The notes under the pieces were generated by a model. It searched no databases, was not told the DNA's origin, and saw only the letters and a program-made list of their open reading frames with translations. A stretch of 64,000 nt of DNA from NCBI RefSeq assembly GCF_003992725.1, contig NZ_RZNF01000007.1:124001-188000 (forward strand), read 5' to 3'. A program made the position numbers and the translations under genes. This document shows, one piece after another, positions 54,589 to 63,595 of this stretch. The first letter of the stretch is position 1, and the number at the start of each line of letters is the position of its first letter. The DNA comes from Rhodomicrobium lacus (GTDB lineage: Bacteria > Pseudomonadota > Alphaproteobacteria > Rhizobiales > Rhodomicrobiaceae).

Positions 54589-55056
54589 ATGACGGATGCT
54601 CCACCGTGGGGCTCGGCCTGGCCCGATCTTTCGGGCCGCGTGCTTGCCGAAGGCCACGTGCTGCCGGTGCGCGTCTATTTCGAGGACACGGATTTTTCCG
54701 GCGCATCCTATCATGCGAGCTACCTGCGCTGGTGCGAGCGGGGCCGCTCCGACTTCCTGCGCCTTCTCGGCGTGCATCACAACAAGCTGGCGGACGGCTC
54801 GCTAACGGGGGAACCGTCGGTGTTCGCCGTGCGCCGTCTCAAGGCCGAATTCCTGCGCGCAGCCCGCATCGACGACGAGCTTGAGGTGCACACGGCCTAC
54901 GGCTCCTTCACCAAGGCGACCATCACGCTCACGCAGCACATTGTGCGCGGAAGCGAGCGCGTATTCGAGCTTGAAGTGCAATGCGTACTGCTGTCGATGA
55001 CGGGGCGCGTGCTGCGCCTGCCGCCCGCGCTGGTGGATATGCTGACGCGCGGTTAG
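54589..55056 (+). CDS. ybgC: YbgC-type acyl-CoA thioesterase
   Basis: A 155-residue hot-dog thioesterase. HVLPVRVYFEDTDFSGASYH contains the catalytic Asp (YFEDTD), followed by ASYLRWCERGRSDFLRLLG and SVFAVRRLKAEFLRAARIDD. YbgC proteins cleave short acyl-CoA or acyl-ACP and are usually encoded first in the tol-pal cluster; here no tolQ follows, so it is separated from its usual partners. The ATG at 54589 gives the normal family N-terminus, while the open frame reaches back to 54421 without conserved sequence. Chain-length preference is not known. Confidence 0.87.
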   Translation: MTDAPPWGSAWPDLSGRVLAEGHVLPVRVYFEDTDFSGASYHASYLRWCERGRSDFLRLLGVHHNKLADGSLTGEPSVFAVRRLKAEFLRAARIDDELEVHTAYGSFTKATITLTQHIVRGSERVFELEVQCVLLSMTGRVLRLPPALVDMLTRG

Positions 55057-55068
55057 GACCAGCGGCGC

Positions 55069-55122
55069 GAATTTGACATTTGAGGCCCGGTGACTGCGAG
55101 CTCTCGCTCAAATGTCAAATTC
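55069..55122. repeat. Perfect 16-bp inverted repeat
   Basis: Arms GAATTTGACATTTGAG (55069-55084) and its exact complement (55107-55122) around 22 bases. It begins just after ybgC. The core GACATTTG recurs in the palindrome directly downstream and at 27488. Confidence 0.75.
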
Positions 55123-55148
55123 AAAAGCTCCACTCAAATCATGATGTT

Positions 55149-55226
55149 GCTAGTGGTCCTTTCGATCCGACATTTGATCGCAAGCGTGCTGCAAACGGAT
55201 GCAAATGTCGGAATCGGACTACTAGC
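55149..55226. repeat. 78-base palindromic element overlapping the end of irr
   Basis: Outer arms GCTAGTGGTCC (55149-55159) and GGACTACTAGC (55216-55226) pair with one mismatch; inner arms TCCGACATTTG (55166-55176) and CAAATGTCGGA (55202-55212) pair perfectly. The irr stop codon is inside the right arm. It could end irr transcription, or be a MITE- or REP-like unit. Confidence 0.65.
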
Positions 55227-55668
55227 GCGCCTTCACGAGCCGGATCAGCACGTCGATACGGGCGACCTTCATGCCTTCCGGCAACTTGGGAACCGTCACG
55301 GTTACTTCGTTGTCGGGCTCAAGGTCGACGAGGCGGCCTTCCTCCTCGAAGTAGAAGTGCTGATGGTCTGAAATCTTGGTGTGGAAATAGTTCTTCGACC
55401 CCTCGATCGCGACTTCACGCAGCAGCCCGCATTCGGTGAGCTGTTTCAGCGTGTTGTAAACGGTGGCAAGCGACACCGCCATCTTGTTGGCGACGGCTTC
55501 CGCGTGCAGTTCCTCCGCTGTCACGTGGCGATCTCTCTCCTTGAACAGGAGCTTGGCGAGATCAATTCGCTGCCGCGTGGGGCGAAGGCCCGCATCGCGA
55601 AGTTTCGCTTCGATACGGCAGGTCGCGTCCCTGCTGTCCGCAACCCGCGCTTCTTCCGGCAGATACAC
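55222..55668 (-). CDS. irr: Iron response regulator Irr (Fur family)
   Basis: A 148-residue Fur-family repressor of the Irr branch. The winged-helix part shows LRDAGLRPTRQRIDLAKLLF, HVTAEELHAEAVANKMAVSL and ATVYNTLKQLTECGLLREV. The metal/heme region has SDHQHFYFEEEGRLVDLEPD, a version of the His-rich motif of Irr. In this order Irr senses iron through heme status and represses heme and iron-use genes under iron limitation. The start is a GTG at 55668 with a strong GGGGAGG whose bases directly follow the nifS stop codon; only 11 bases separate the genes, so coupled translation is likely. Confidence 0.92.
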   Translation of the reverse strand: MYLPEEARVADSRDATCRIEAKLRDAGLRPTRQRIDLAKLLFKERDRHVTAEELHAEAVANKMAVSLATVYNTLKQLTECGLLREVAIEGSKNYFHTKISDHQHFYFEEEGRLVDLEPDNEVTVTVPKLPEGMKVARIDVLIRLVKAR

Positions 55669-55679
55669 CGCACCCTCCC

Positions 55680-56885
55680 CTATCGAAACCTGGCGCCAAG
55701 CCCTGCTTGCGCCGTCTCGTCCATCGCAGCAAAGCCCGAGGCTTCACGCGCTTTTTCCACTATCGCGGGCAATATTGCAAGAACACGAGCGACGTCTTCT
55801 GCCCCGCTGGTATGCGAAAATGAAAAGCGGATCGCCCCCAAAGCGGCGGCGTAAGGCATCTTCATGGCCCGCAGGACATGAGATGGCTCCGTAGAGCCGG
55901 CAGCACAAGCGGAACCGGACGACGCTGCTATTCCAGCCTTATCGAGTTCCAGAAGGATCACTTCACCCTCGGCGCGATCAAACACGATATTCGACGTGTT
56001 CGGAAGTCGATTCTCGGTATCGCCCGCAATAAACGTCGCATCTATGCGACCAAGTGCCGCGCGCTCGAAGCTGTCGCGAAGCTGCCTTACGCGATCGCCT
56101 TCGCCGGTCAGCAAACGCTTCAGCGCGAGGTCCGCAGCCTTGCCGAGCCCGACGATGCCCGGCGCATTCTCGGTCCCCGCGCGCCGTCCACGCTCCTGCT
56201 TGCCGCCGCGGATGAGTTGATGGAAGGCCACGCCCTTTTTCACGTAAAGCGCGCCGATCCCTTTCGGCCCGTGAAACTTGTGCGACGATAGTGAAAGCAT
56301 GTCGACATCGGCGGCCTTCACGTCGATCGGGATGCGTCCGGCGGCCTGAACCGCGTCCGTGTGAAACAGCGCGCCCGCTTCGTGTGCGAGCCGCGCAAGC
56401 TCCGCGACCGGAAAGATCGTGCCGGTTTCGTTGTTCGCCCACATGATCGAGGCGATGGCCGTTTTCGGCCCGAGCGCGGCGCGATAGGCGTCGATATCGA
56501 GACGGCCTTTCCCGTCGACGCCGATCATGTGCACCACGATGCCGCGATGGCGCTGGAGATGCTGCACAAGCGCGAGGATCGCCGGATGCTCGACGGCAGA
56601 TGTCACGATCTCGTTGCGGCCGCTCTGCGTTTCGAGCGCCGACAGAAGTGCCGTATTGTCCGATTCGGTGCCGCCCGAGGTGAAGACGATCTCGTGGCTT
56701 TGGGCAGCGCCGATCAGAGCGCGCACCTGCTTGCGCGCTCGATTGATCGCCGCGCCCACTTCCTTGCCGAAGCCGTGGATGGAAGATGCGTTGCCGAAAT
56801 GCTCGGTGAAGAAGGGAAGCATCTCAGCCAGCACAGCCGGATCGAGCCGGGTGGTGGCGTTATTGTCCAGATAGACCGGATGCAT
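55680..56885 (-). CDS. nifS: Cysteine desulfurase, NifS type
   Basis: A 401-residue PLP enzyme that takes sulfur from cysteine for Fe-S cluster assembly. It opens with MHPVYLDNNATTRLDPAVLA, a NifS hallmark. FTSGGTESDN and ASIMWANNETGTIFPV follow, and the PLP Lys is in SLSSHKFHGPKGIGALYVKK. The catalytic Cys is about residue 327 in SSGSACAAGSTEPSHVLRAM. It resembles nitrogenase-linked NifS more than housekeeping IscS/SufS. It is the last Fe-S gene of hesB-nifU-nifS behind a sigma-54 promoter. The spacing is 18 bases from nifU and 11 to irr. Confidence 0.92.
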   Translation of the reverse strand: MHPVYLDNNATTRLDPAVLAEMLPFFTEHFGNASSIHGFGKEVGAAINRARKQVRALIGAAQSHEIVFTSGGTESDNTALLSALETQSGRNEIVTSAVEHPAILALVQHLQRHRGIVVHMIGVDGKGRLDIDAYRAALGPKTAIASIMWANNETGTIFPVAELARLAHEAGALFHTDAVQAAGRIPIDVKAADVDMLSLSSHKFHGPKGIGALYVKKGVAFHQLIRGGKQERGRRAGTENAPGIVGLGKAADLALKRLLTGEGDRVRQLRDSFERAALGRIDATFIAGDTENRLPNTSNIVFDRAEGEVILLELDKAGIAASSGSACAAGSTEPSHVLRAMKMPYAAALGAIRFSFSHTSGAEDVARVLAILPAIVEKAREASGFAAMDETAQAGLGARFR

Positions 56886-56903
56886 AAGTCCCTTCTTTCG
56901 GTT

Positions 56904-57200
56904 TTAGTGGGCACCCATCGCGGGAATGAGCCGCACCGGATAGCCGAGCTTCGCGATGATCTTGGCCTGAATGCCGTGCACGGTGACCGACGCAAGCTGA
57001 CAGCCGACGCACGCGCCTGTCATGCGTACTTTCACGAAATTGCCCGAGACTTCGAGAAGTTCGCAGTCGCCGCCGTCGCGCTTCAGGTGCGGGCGCAGCT
57101 CTTCGATGGTTTCGCGGATGATACGCAGTTTCGTTTCTTCGGCCGTTTCCACGGGGGCATCGCACTCGACGGTTTCGGCGCGTTCCAAGACTTCGAACAT
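56904..57200 (-). CDS. nifU: NifU-type Fe-S scaffold, C-terminal (Nfu) domain only
   Basis: A 98-residue protein with just the Nfu domain: RIIRETIEELRPHLKRDGGD, CELLEVSGNFVKVRMTGACV and GCQLASVTVHGIQAKII. The C-X2-C pair is C64 and C67 and holds a transient cluster. The N-terminal IscU-like and central ferredoxin-like domains of full NifU are absent, a short form seen in several photosynthetic and diazotrophic alphaproteobacteria. It lies 17 bases after hesB and 18 before nifS, so it is part of one operon. An SufU/Nfu housekeeping role is possible, but the promoter argues for nif. Confidence 0.9.
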   Translation of the reverse strand: MFEVLERAETVECDAPVETAEETKLRIIRETIEELRPHLKRDGGDCELLEVSGNFVKVRMTGACVGCQLASVTVHGIQAKIIAKLGYPVRLIPAMGAH

Positions 57201-57217
57201 TGTTTGTTTTCCCTCTG

Positions 57218-57538
57218 TCAGCCGAACGATTTACCGCAGGAACAGCTCGACGTCGCCTTCGGATTGTCGAAGGTGAAGCCCGAGCTTTGCACGCTGGTCA
57301 CGAAATCGACGGTGGTGCCTTCGAGCATCCCGACGCTGTCGCGATCCACGAAGAGTTTTACGCCGCGCTCTTCAACGACGATGTCGTCGGGGTTCGGATC
57401 GGCCACGAGCCCCATCAGATATTTGAAGCCCGCGCATCCCCCTGCGTCCACGGCGAGGCGCAACCCTTCGATCGGCGTGTTCGCGCCCTGGATGGCGGTG
57501 CGAACGGCGTTTGCTGCGGCTTCCGTAAGGTAGATCAT
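57218..57538 (-). CDS. hesB: HesB/IscA-type Fe-S carrier (nif-associated)
   Basis: A 106-residue A-type Fe-S carrier. The three ligand cysteines are C35 (DAGGCAGFKY), C99 and C101 (SSCSCGKSFG), the standard CxnCxC arrangement. LTEAAANAVRTAIQ, GLRLAVDAGGC and FVTSVQSSGFTFDNPKATSS complete the domain. It passes clusters on to target apoproteins. It is the first gene behind the sigma-54 promoter and NifA site at 57583-57676, so it is likely expressed during nitrogen fixation. The start at 57538 is preceded by TTACGGAAG; the open frame to 57634 runs through the promoter and cannot be coding. Confidence 0.93.
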   Translation of the reverse strand: MIYLTEAAANAVRTAIQGANTPIEGLRLAVDAGGCAGFKYLMGLVADPNPDDIVVEERGVKLFVDRDSVGMLEGTTVDFVTSVQSSGFTFDNPKATSSCSCGKSFG

Positions 57539-57583
57539 GCGGCGGAGCCTTTCTGCTTGAACCTGCATTCGCTCAAGGCTGAA

Positions 57584-57598
57584 GCAACGCCCGTGCCA
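57584..57598 (-). promoter_or_regulatory. Sigma-54 (RpoN) promoter of hesB-nifU-nifS
   Basis: On the minus strand TGGCACG-GGCG-TTGC matches the -24/-12 consensus TGGCACG-N4-TTGC exactly. The predicted start is about 35 bases before the hesB ATG. It implies dependence on an enhancer-binding activator, and a NifA-type site lies upstream. Confidence 0.85.
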
Positions 57599-57660
57599 AT
57601 GCGGCAAGTGGCTGCACGGCTTGATAAATATCAAATTTAGAGCGGATCGAAGATGCGGTT

Positions 57661-57676
57661 TGTCGGATTCCCGACA
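57661..57676. promoter_or_regulatory. NifA upstream activator sequence
   Basis: TGTCGGATTCCCGACA fits TGT-N10-ACA exactly and is itself a good palindrome. It lies 63 bases upstream of the -24 element, a normal NifA distance. An AT-rich stretch (57620-57640) between the two could bend or bind IHF, although no clear IHF consensus was found. Confidence 0.75.
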
Positions 57677-57698
57677 CGTCGCAAGCGGGACGCGCGGT

Positions 57699-58022
57699 TC
57701 AATGACCGGAGCGCGCTGCCCTGTGAGCGGCGGTCAAGCCGAGAAAGACCAGAATCGCGCGGTTGAGACGGAGAATGTCCTCGTCGGCGAGGTGTCTCGT
57801 AATCTTGTCGACCATGAGGCGGCAGCTCTGCCTGAGGCCGTTCATCTTGTCTGGCTCGACCGGCAGCCGGAACAACGGTGCTTCGGTTTCGTCGGAGGTG
57901 AAGGCGCAGATCGTTATTGAATCCGTGGCGTCGAAGGCGTCTTCCTGAATGATGACGGCGGGGCGGGGCTTGCCCGCGTAATCCTTACCGCCCGACACGG
58001 TCCAGATTTCCCCGCGCCTCAT
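57699..58022 (-). CDS. PemK/MazF-family toxin
   Basis: A 107-residue PemK-like protein: MRRGEIWTVSGGKDYAGKPR, PAVIIQEDAFDATDSITICAF, APLFRLPVEPDKMNGLRQSC and LMVDKITR. These match the ribonuclease fold whose members cut RNA at short sequences. It overlaps the antitoxin gene by four bases (ATGA), the usual toxin-second order. Its start GTG or ATG is fixed by that overlap. Sequence specificity cannot be predicted. The C-terminus after residue 95 is divergent. Confidence 0.9.
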   Translation of the reverse strand: MRRGEIWTVSGGKDYAGKPRPAVIIQEDAFDATDSITICAFTSDETEAPLFRLPVEPDKMNGLRQSCRLMVDKITRHLADEDILRLNRAILVFLGLTAAHRAARSGH

Positions 58023-58594: not shown

Positions 58595-60862
<2,268 letters not shown>

Positions 60863-60933: not shown

Positions 60934-61012
60934 GATTCCAGTGTCGCTTGCCTCATGACGCCGCTTGCCTCAAAAAGACAACGCGCCGCCGCCGACCTCC
61001 AAGGACTACACC

Positions 61013-63595
61013 ATGCTTGAAGCCTACCGTGCCCACGCCGCCGAACGCGCCGCGCTCGGCATTCCCGCGCTGCCGCTCAGTCGCCAGCAGACGGAAGACC
61101 TCGTCGCGCTGTTGCGCAATCCGCCTGCGGGCGAGGAAGCGTTTCTTGTCGATCTCATAACGTACCGCGTCCCGGCGGGCGTGGACGATGCGGCGAAGGC
61201 GAAGGCGGCGTTCCTCTCCGCCATCGCGAGGGGCGAGGAAGCGAACGCGCTTATTTCGCGCGCGCGGGCTACTGAGCTTCTCGGAACCATGCTCGGCGGC
61301 TTCAACGTCAAGCCTCTGATCGAGCTTCTCGACGACGCCGAAGTCGGCGCGGTCGCCGCCGATGGCCTCAAAAAGACGCTGCTCGTGTTCGACTATTTCC
61401 ACGACGTGAAGGAGCGCGCCGACGCGGGCAACGCCAACGCGAAAGCCGTGATCCAGAGCTGGGCGGACGCGGAGTGGTTCACGTCGCGCCCCGAAGTGCC
61501 CGCATCGCTCACCGTCACCGTGTTCAAGGTGAATGGCGAGACGAACACGGACGACCTGTCGCCCGCGCCGGACGCCTCAACGCGCCCCGACATCCCCCTC
61601 CACGCGCTCGCCATGCTGAAGAACCCGCGCCCCGGCATCGAACCGGACGAACCCGGCGCACGCGGCCCCGTCAAGCAGCTTGCGGCGCTCATCGCCAAGG
61701 GGAACCCGGTTGCGTATGTCGGCGACGTGGTCGGCACCGGCTCTTCGCGCAAATCGGCGACGAACTCGGTTCTGTGGTTCACGGGCGAAGATATTCCCTA
61801 CGTGCCGAACAAGCGCTTTGGCGGCGTCTGCCTCGGCACGAAGATTGCGCCCATTTTCTACAACACGATGGAAGACGCGGGCGCGCTGCCGATCGAACTC
61901 GACGCATCGAAGATGGACATGGGCGATGTGGTCGAGCTTCGCCCCTATGAAGGCAAGGCGCTGAAAAACGGCGAAGTCATTGCGGAATTCAAGGTGAAGT
62001 CCGAGGTGATCTTCGACGAGGTGCGCGCGGGCGGCCGCATCCCGCTCATCATCGGGCGCGGGCTCACCGCGAAGGCGCGCGAGGCGCTCGGGCTTCCGGC
62101 ATCGACGCTGTTCCGGCTACCCGCCGTGCCGCACGACACCGGCAAGGGCTTCACGCTCGCCCAGAAGATCGTCGGCCGCGCCTGCGGTCTGCCGGAAGGC
62201 AAGGGCATTCGCCCCGGCACCTATTGCGAGCCGAAGATGACGACGGTCGGCAGTCAGGACACCACCGGCCCGATGACGCGCGACGAGTTGAAGGATCTCG
62301 CCTGCCTCGGCTTCTCCGCCGATCTCGTCATGCAGTCCTTCTGCCACACGGCGGCCTATCCGAAGCCGGTCGACGTGACGACGCACCGCGAATTGCCGGG
62401 CTTCATCGCCACGCGCGGCGGCGTATCCCTGCGGCCCGGCGACGGCGTCATCCATTCGTGGCTGAACCGCCTGCTTCTGCCCGACACGGTCGGCACCGGC
62501 GGCGACAGCCATACGCGCTTTCCGATCGGCATCTCTTTCCCGGCGGGCTCGGGCCTCGTGGCGTTCGCTGCGGCGACGGGCGTCATGCCGCTCGACATGC
62601 CGGAAAGCGTGCTCGTACGCTTCAAGGGCAAGCTGCAGCCCGGCATCACGCTTCGCGACCTCGTGAATGCGATCCCGCTGGCGGCAATCAAGGCCGGTGC
62701 GCTCACTGTCGAGAAGAAGGGCAAGAAGAACGTCTTCAACGGTCGCATCCTCGAAATCGAGGGGCTGCCGGATCTGAAGGTGGAACAGGCGTTCGAGCTG
62801 ACCGACGCATCGGCGGAGCGATCGGCGGCGGCATGTACCGTGCGGCTCAACAAGGAGCCGATCATCGAATACATGCGCTCGAACATCGCGCTGATGCGGT
62901 GGATGATCGCGAACGGCTATGAGGACGCCCGCAGCCTCGCGCGCCGCATCGCCGCGATGGAAGCGTGGATCGCCGCGCCGCACCTGATCGAGCCGGACGC
63001 GGACGCGGACTACGCCGCCGTGTTCGAGATCGACCTTGCCACCATCAAGGAACCGATCCTCGCCTGTCCGAACGACCCGGACGACGTCAAGACGCTGTCC
63101 GAGGTGGCGGGCGACACCATCGACGAGGTGTTCATCGGCTCGTGCATGACGAACATCGGCCACTTCCGCGCGGCGGGGAAGATCCTCGCGGGCAAGTCCG
63201 ACATCCCGACACGGCTGTGGATCGCGCCCCCGACCAAGATGGACGCACGCATCCTGACGGAAGAGGGCTATTATTCAGTGCTCGGCAAGTCCGGCGCGCG
63301 GATGGAAATGCCCGGCTGCTCGCTCTGCATGGGCAATCAGGCACAGATCCGCAAAGGCTCGACGGCACTTTCCACCTCGACGCGCAACTTCCCCAACCGG
63401 CTCGGCATCGACACGCGGGTCTATCTCTCGTCGGCGGAGCTTGCTGCGGTGGGCGCGCTTCTCGGACGCATCCCGACGCTGGCGGAATATCTGGAGCACG
63501 TCGAGGCCGTGAACAAAGCCTCGGGTGACGTCTACCGCTACATGAATTTCGACCAGATCCCGGAGTTTGCCGACGCGGGTAAGGCGGCGGCTTGA
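61013..63595 (+). CDS. acnB: Aconitate hydratase B
   Basis: An 860-residue AcnB converting citrate to isocitrate. The N-terminal HEAT-like domain starts [21 protein letters not shown], a typical AcnB opening. The swivel domain has [19 protein letters not shown]; the Fe-S ligands are the Cys in [19 protein letters not shown] and two in [34 protein letters not shown] also belongs to the core. AAGGA at eight bases fixes the ATG at 61013; a TTG at 60965 is not needed. It follows icd directly in the pathway order and a terminator closes it. Confidence 0.97.

Follow-up and report, generated by a model that had tools for sequence, protein, structure and literature searches.

NifA-controlled operons of the iscN-nifU-nifS type are already known, as described in PMC6925177. 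In Rhodobacter capsulatus, putative NifA and RpoN sites precede iscN-nifU1-nifSVW, which includes genes for an A-type carrier, a NifU-type protein and NifS, and iscN expression is described there as NifA-dependent (PMC6925177). Mesorhizobium loti is reported to have iscN-iscU and nifS-nifW as separate units with -24/-12 promoters (PMC3538637). A link from NifA or RpoN to the iron regulator Irr is likewise not wholly new (PMC4999443, PMC13207237): a study of Rhizobiales, whose main text gives neither the genome nor the arrangement of the irr target and does not contain the word Rhodomicrobium, newly proposes hesB and irr as candidates for NifA control (PMC4999443), and irr is reported to drop strongly in Bradyrhizobium sp. 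DOA9 under nitrogen-fixing conditions when RpoN is mutated (PMC13207237). Irr is described as binding its boxes when haem is lacking and as repressing or activating according to box position (PMC7762939). Two further systems are comparable. Borrelia BosR is a Fur-family protein reported to bind next to a -24/-12 element, on its upstream side (PMC3037356), and in Gluconacetobacter diazotrophicus an iron regulator is predicted upstream of nif genes, in an iron-limitation study that reports nifH and nifK as down in inconsistent wording (PMC9368920).

The locus described here lies in a 64,000-nucleotide stretch of the Rhodomicrobium lacus genome (C7:124001-188000, referred to as the window), part of a 3.88-Mb assembly of 24 contigs. 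Comparisons within the genus cover five genomes, namely the source genome (G000) and G001, G002, G003 and G004, of which the G003 assembly is 88% complete. Order-level searches cover 397 genomes. Family matches agree with the initial annotation that the locus encodes an A-type carrier, a short Nfu and NifS. The extra Fe-S capacity that the initial annotation read into the locus is a possibility only; a genome search at E <= 1e-60 returned this NifS as the sole match. The extent given to the operon stood for hesB-nfu-nifS but missed a fourth gene, irr, which begins 11 nt past the nifS stop (Table 1).

Table 1. Features of the hesB operon and its promoter region, in window positions.
Feature	Position	Strand	Basis
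TGT-N10-ACA palindrome TGTCGGGAATCCGACA, predicted NifA upstream activator site	57676..57661	(-)	exact match
FixK/FNR-type box TTGATATTTATCAA (TTGA-N6-TCAA)	57634..57621	(-)	pattern match
sigma-54 -24/-12 element TGGCACG-GGCG-TTGC TGGCACGGGCGTTGC	57598..57584	(-)	exact match
Predicted hesB transcription start	57572	(-)	sigma-54 geometry, about 12 nt past the -12 C
hesB/iscN, A-type Fe-S carrier, 106 aa	57218..57538	(-)	PF01521; TIGR00049 over cut-off
nfu, short NifU C-terminal-type domain, 98 aa	56904..57200	(-)	PF01106 over cut-off
nifS, cysteine desulfurase, 401 aa	55680..56885	(-)	TIGR03402 560.8 bits, cut-off 530.75
irr, second IrrA-type regulator, 148 aa, GTG start	55222..55668	(-)	NF045678 191.1 bits, cut-off 150

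The four genes are tightly packed, with 17 nt between hesB and nfu and 18 nt between nfu and nifS. The hesB, nfu and nifS frames are open, the hesB ATG is preceded by AGAAAGG, and a Shine-Dalgarno-like sequence, GGGGAGGG, lies ahead of the irr GTG beside the nifS stop. The adjacency and spacing of nifS and irr are kept in G001, G002 and G004. G003 has hesB-nfu-nifS, and no irr match was found in the 20 kb around these genes. We also scanned 80 other nif-type NifS loci (4.5-11.2 kb long, 59 of them at least 9 kb), where a hesB match was present in 16 and an nfu match in 36. The one Fur-family match in these 80 loci is a distant one (L068), at 28% identity and more than 4 kb away. A transcription unit of four genes, the last being irr, is most likely: spacing and conservation place irr in the operon at the level of sequence, and irr is probably co-transcribed with nifS. 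Operon-end regulators often have internal promoters, and an irr promoter of its own inside nifS would make NifA control of irr unimportant. The terminator-like hairpin on the operon strand inside nifS (56050..56035) would suit such an arrangement but carries little weight, with 3 hairpins found in the region against 3.4 expected. The 11-nt gap kept in four genomes and the Shine-Dalgarno-like sequence beside the nifS stop both argue against a separate irr promoter, as does a scan of 54900-57800 for sigma-70-like promoters that returned 0 matches against 0.7 expected, itself weak evidence from one simple pattern. We regard an independent irr promoter as improbable. Directly upstream of hesB, on the same strand, lies a PemK/MazF-like toxin ORF (57699-58022), with a homologue upstream of hesB in G004 and none in the stretches covered for G001 and G002, where an isocitrate dehydrogenase gene is nearby. 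The window further contains a monomeric NADP isocitrate dehydrogenase gene (58610-60862) followed on the same strand by aconitase B (60965-63595).

The promoter region carries the two elements on which the initial annotation had based sigma-54/NifA control of hesB-nifU-nifS. TGGCACG-N4-TTGC and TGT-N10-ACA, which correspond to the RpoN and NifA consensus sequences as given in PMC4999443, are both exact matches separated by 62 nt, and both are kept in all five genus genomes, with TGGCACG and TTGC invariant in each row. The end of TTGC lies 45 nt from the hesB ATG (57538). Transcription from sigma-54 promoters starts about 12 nt after the -12 C, and by this rule hesB would start near the position listed in Table 1, with a leader of about 34 nt. 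The 'about 35 bases' of the initial annotation fits this leader but not the distance from element to ATG. In an alignment of the four close rows, 5-10 of 10 positions per bin are identical from the palindrome into hesB, and 0-2 of 10 upstream of 57690. Part of this drop arises because G001 and G002 have a different upstream neighbor.

Taken singly, the elements are not rare. The palindrome occurs at 4 places in the window against 3.68 expected, and the promoter pattern with two mismatches permitted is not enriched (26 against 28.9 expected). The exact promoter occurs once in the window and at least once in 15 of 300 shuffles. The combination of TGGCAC-N5-TTGC with a palindrome 40-160 nt upstream occurred in none of the 300 shuffles, and this result and the conservation in the genus led us to reject a chance motif. 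Genome-wide, 8 exact promoters were found against 1 for a reversed control, and promoter plus palindrome at 3 places against 0; these three places are the hesB operon, nifH and nifB. An arrangement shared with nifH and nifB upholds the proposed sigma-54/NifA control, and the genes expected of a NifA-controlled nitrogen fixer are present in the genome: a NifA encoded at C3:108547-110292 exceeds its cut-off (694 bits against 528.85), nifH is followed by four NifD/K/E/N-type genes (C7:274358-280391), and nifB is identified by TIGR01290 (692.6 bits). A second nifH-type gene and anfDGK, over their cut-offs and indicating an Fe-only nitrogenase, are encoded on C4 beside a NifA-related activator that falls below the NifA cut-off. 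As judged from these motifs and genes, NifA control of the hesB operon is well supported. The sigma-54 activators and promoters further imply an rpoN gene in the genome. In contrast to the described iscN-nifU-nifS operons, the unit is separated by about 90 kb from nifH (C7:273196, same contig), its nfu encodes the short domain only, nifV and nifW are found elsewhere, beside nifA on C3, and the unit ends in irr.

Further exact TGGCACG-N4-TTGC elements lie upstream of an ORF resembling gcvH (L157:9917-9931), upstream of an ORF resembling an AhpC-type peroxiredoxin (L160:9947-9961, PF00578) and upstream of an ORF resembling a hydrogenase small subunit (L161:10134-10148; PF01058, below cut-off). 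The genome also encodes a nitrogenase-like cluster at C3:197044-203373 (L156:7044-13373) with NifB-like and NifH-like proteins, two tandem 509-aa ORFs, the first of which is NifE/D-like by scan, and a NifK-like protein. On C12 (L034), beside an ORF resembling O-acetylhomoserine sulfhydrylase, lies a second D/K-like pair. We take the C3 and C12 clusters to resemble methylthio-alkane reductase.

A FixK-type box lies between the NifA site and the hesB promoter. It matches the consensus TTGA-N6-TCAA (PMC13327599), is present in four of the five genus rows (G003 is without it), and was found within 160 nt upstream of TGGCAC-N5-TTGC in none of 300 shuffles. Its presence suggests that oxygen or redox state may act on the hesB operon as well. 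In R. palustris, FixK sites are predicted upstream of irr (PMC4999443), and a gene that is possibly irr is among the FixK targets listed in PMC3050613. A class-II sigma-70 FixK promoter for hesB was considered and rejected, as no -10-like sequence is seen by eye at the required place; the simple scan of 54900-57800 likewise gave no sigma-70-like match in favor of such a reading.

The fourth gene encodes a second Irr of narrow distribution. Matches of at least 94% identity were found in 4 of the 397 order genomes (94-99% within the genus), and the next matches are at 63-64%. A housekeeping Irr, encoded at C3:269899 in the source genome, is present in all five genus genomes and is the sole Irr of G003; Irr over the family cut-off was found in 58 of 61 genomes. 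In a 65-row tree, whose bootstrap had not converged, the four operon Irr rows form one group (100/100) on a long stem of 1.05; the tree does not clearly join them to housekeeping Irr or set them apart from it. Operon Irr keeps the HxH haem motif (HQH, residues 102-104) that is named as conserved in Irr (PMC7762939). None of the four operon proteins has a Cys-Pro haem regulatory motif of the Bradyrhizobium type. This does not exclude IrrA membership, because the second haem site is described as varying among Irr proteins (PMC7762939).

The main departure from other Irr proteins is found at residue 96, which is His in all four operon Irr rows and Asp in all five housekeeping rows. Asp occupies this site in 58 of 58 other Irr rows (54 distinct sequences), a count that leaves out the divergent Irr-like rows L234 and L235 and that represents an invariance observed here, with no published IrrA criterion behind it. 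The site aligns with an Asp of PerR (2fe3) and a Glu of Fur (1mzb), both of which we take to be regulatory metal ligands. Given His96, sensing by operon Irr may be different or impaired. The segment VSLATVYNTL is identical in operon and housekeeping Irr, and both proteins could therefore bind the same boxes.

The longer Irr box consensus is TTTAGAA-N3-TTCTAAA. The box, or ICE, is described around a TTCTAA half in PMC7540006, and the motif is also mentioned in PMC4902296 and PMC10374146. In the genus, TTTAGAANNNTTCT occurs 5, 5, 7, 2 and 1 times in G000 to G004, respectively, against 1, 0, 0, 0 and 0 times for the reversed control. The 20 rows lie beside nifH (4), nifB (3), flavodoxin (4, including an overlapping pair in G002), a TonB haem receptor (3, scoring under the family cut-off on the scanned piece), a divergent pair of Fe2+-transport and porin-like genes (3, with only the porin-like side listed in G002), rubrerythrin (2 rows from a single palindrome) and, below cut-off, a solute-binding protein (1). 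From these neighbors, TTTAGAANNNTTCT appears to mark an iron regulon in the genus that includes nifH and nifB. In Bradyrhizobium, a rubrerythrin-like gene is reported as an Irr target (PMC3413700) and hmuR as ICE-dependent (PMC3836376). Overall, the system resembles the IrrA/ICE regulon in having a Fur-family protein over the IrrA cut-off, an HxH motif, and boxes at haem-receptor, rubrerythrin and other iron genes, and it differs from such systems in its nif-linked second paralogue, the replacement of Asp by His96 and the presence of boxes at sigma-54 nif promoters. The haem-receptor gene behind its Irr box (L201:1630-3014, at about 203 kb of C7) is split into two overlapping frames in the source genome and consists of long single frames in G001 and G002.

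At the nif promoters, the Irr-box-like sequence TTTAGAA-N3-TTCT ends 8 nt before the TGG of the -24 element at nifH and 6 nt before it at nifB, between the NifA sites and the promoter. The nifB box of G004 ends 7 nt before TGG and has one mismatch, and the 7 remaining nifH and nifB boxes are exact. Scored against the longer consensus, each of the 8 nifH and nifB promoters in the four genomes with operon irr matches at 10-11 of 14 positions, while the 12 other promoters (G003 nifB, 4 outgroup nifH, 4 outgroup nifB and 3 anfH) reach 7-9. The outgroup set includes the G041 nifB promoter, itself a weak CGGCAT match, and the scored set is without G034 nifH, whose promoter was not found by the pattern. 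The nifB of G003, the genus member without operon irr, has no Irr box, and its 88%-complete assembly gave no NifH match at E <= 1e-80. A search of the 397 order genomes for a box followed within 2-20 nt by TGGCAC gave 9 matches against 1 for the reversed control. Seven of the nine are nifH or nifB in the four genomes with operon irr; the remaining two lie in G387, before an ORF resembling a LysR-type regulator, and in G078, before a 102-aa ORF only. This co-occurrence of operon irr and nif boxes comes from one clade and is effectively one evolutionary event.

Could AGAA-N3-TTCT near the -24 element simply reflect chance or an AT-rich setting of the promoters? The motif is a short one, the nif sites reach 10-11 of 14 against the longer consensus, and the flanks of the nifH box are conserved too. 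In addition, an Irr box in the hesB promoter was rejected as chance: a stretch there scores 10 of 14 in the window but is not conserved, with 7-9 in the four relatives. Against this stand the location and company of the boxes. Two of the five boxes of the source genome lie 6-8 nt from a -24 element, for which the rough chance is 1.5e-8 given 8 exact promoters; only 34 of 5000 random 70-mers score at least 10 of 14; and all 20 rows in the five genomes adjoin nif or iron, redox and transport genes. We regard it as improbable that the nif sites are not Irr sites. In the source genome, an AGAA-N3-TTCT palindrome (L153:10982-10992) lies about 180 nt upstream of the anfH -24 element; neither G001 nor G002 has one in its 3.8-kb anfH locus.

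These observations can be combined into a proposed iron gate. NifA bound at the TGT-N10-ACA site would activate the sigma-54 promoter and thereby transcription of hesB-nfu-nifS-irr. Fe-S assembly for nitrogenase would accordingly be made under nitrogen-fixing conditions, a step that the promoter evidence strongly supports, and the Irr paralogue and the Fe-S supply would rise together with nitrogenase. Operon Irr, alone or with housekeeping Irr, would bind the boxes 6-8 nt upstream of the nifH and nifB -24 elements. By analogy with described Irr proteins, a shortage of haem and iron would leave Irr on the boxes, where it would block the sigma-54 polymerase or the NifA loop, and when iron is sufficient, haem would remove Irr and leave the nifH and nifB promoters free. 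Such a circuit would represent an incoherent feed-forward gate in which NifA makes both nitrogenase and its brake and iron lifts the brake. Outside the gate would lie anfH and the Fe-S assembly operon, which have no conserved promoter box. We infer which Irr acts, its binding to the boxes and the sign of its effect. The reading as a whole, in which a NifA-driven hesB-nfu-nifS-irr operon supplies an Irr that represses nifHDK and nifB according to iron, is held with slightly less than even confidence. Its more specific form, a nif-specific iron checkpoint in which the NifA-driven Irr has been retuned through His96 to gate nifHDK and nifB, and not Fe-S assembly or the Fe-only nitrogenase, is more tentative and somewhat more probably wrong than right.

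The identity of the acting Irr bears on this proposal. The operon could be an ordinary NifA-controlled iscN-nifU-nifS unit, with the housekeeping Irr serving the nif boxes and the operon irr in another role, such as titrating or replacing the housekeeping copy. Housekeeping Irr is found throughout the genus, has the standard Asp at the site that varies and, with its identical VSLATVYNTL segment, could bind the nif boxes. Yet in the genomes and promoters covered here, no nif promoter carries a box unless operon irr is present too, even though Irr itself is found over the family cut-off in 58 of 61 genomes. We consider this arrangement rather unlikely.

The sign of the effect is the second point of discussion. 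Repression is favored because low iron is the condition under which nitrogenase should be off. The case for repression over activation is not strong, and the G. diazotrophicus data on nifH and nifK under iron limitation are inconsistently worded (PMC9368920). Irr bound upstream of the -24 element might instead help, by bending DNA or by recruitment between the NifA site and the sigma-54 polymerase, and the nif boxes do sit between the two. BosR, which reportedly activates at its -24/-12 promoter, offers a precedent within the Fur family. Its best site is described as just upstream of, and adjacent to, that promoter (PMC3037356), and this precedent makes the repressor reading less and the activator reading more likely. 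BosR differs from the system described here in belonging to another branch of the family, in its direct-repeat site, in its target, rpoS, and in operating without NifA. In addition, Irr is reported to act positively from promoter-upstream boxes, as at hmuR (PMC3836376; PMC7762939), and activation dependent on box position is described as far commoner for Irr than for Fur or DtxR (PMC7762939). Two points weigh against activation at the nif promoters: Irr binds at low haem and iron, when Mo-nitrogenase would be costly to produce, and an ICE overlapping the core promoter is reported to repress, as at mbfA (PMC7540006). We consider the activating role somewhat unlikely and retain repression as the preferred reading.

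Compared with the NifA- or RpoN-linked irr genes of PMC4999443 and PMC13207237, the distinguishing feature of the present system is the presence of Irr boxes at the nif promoters, none being described in the portions of these two papers available to us. The G. diazotrophicus prediction in turn concerns Fur and Fur boxes, and the available text describes no regulator gene in a nif operon (PMC9368920). Our searches of the open-access literature turned up no earlier case that combines an Irr gene within a nif operon with Irr boxes at nifH and nifB.

Few enzymes of the cell demand as much iron as nitrogenase and, to our knowledge, the iron coupling of nif transcription in alphaproteobacterial diazotrophs is poorly defined. 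The arrangement found in Rhodomicrobium, as read from its genomes, suggests that the cell gauges its iron supply ahead of nitrogenase synthesis. It outlines a compact, testable circuit in which the nif activator would make an iron sensor able to act on the nifHDK and nifB promoters. If true, haem/Irr sensing would be wired directly to nitrogenase, and the circuit would provide a natural design for making nif expression iron-gated.
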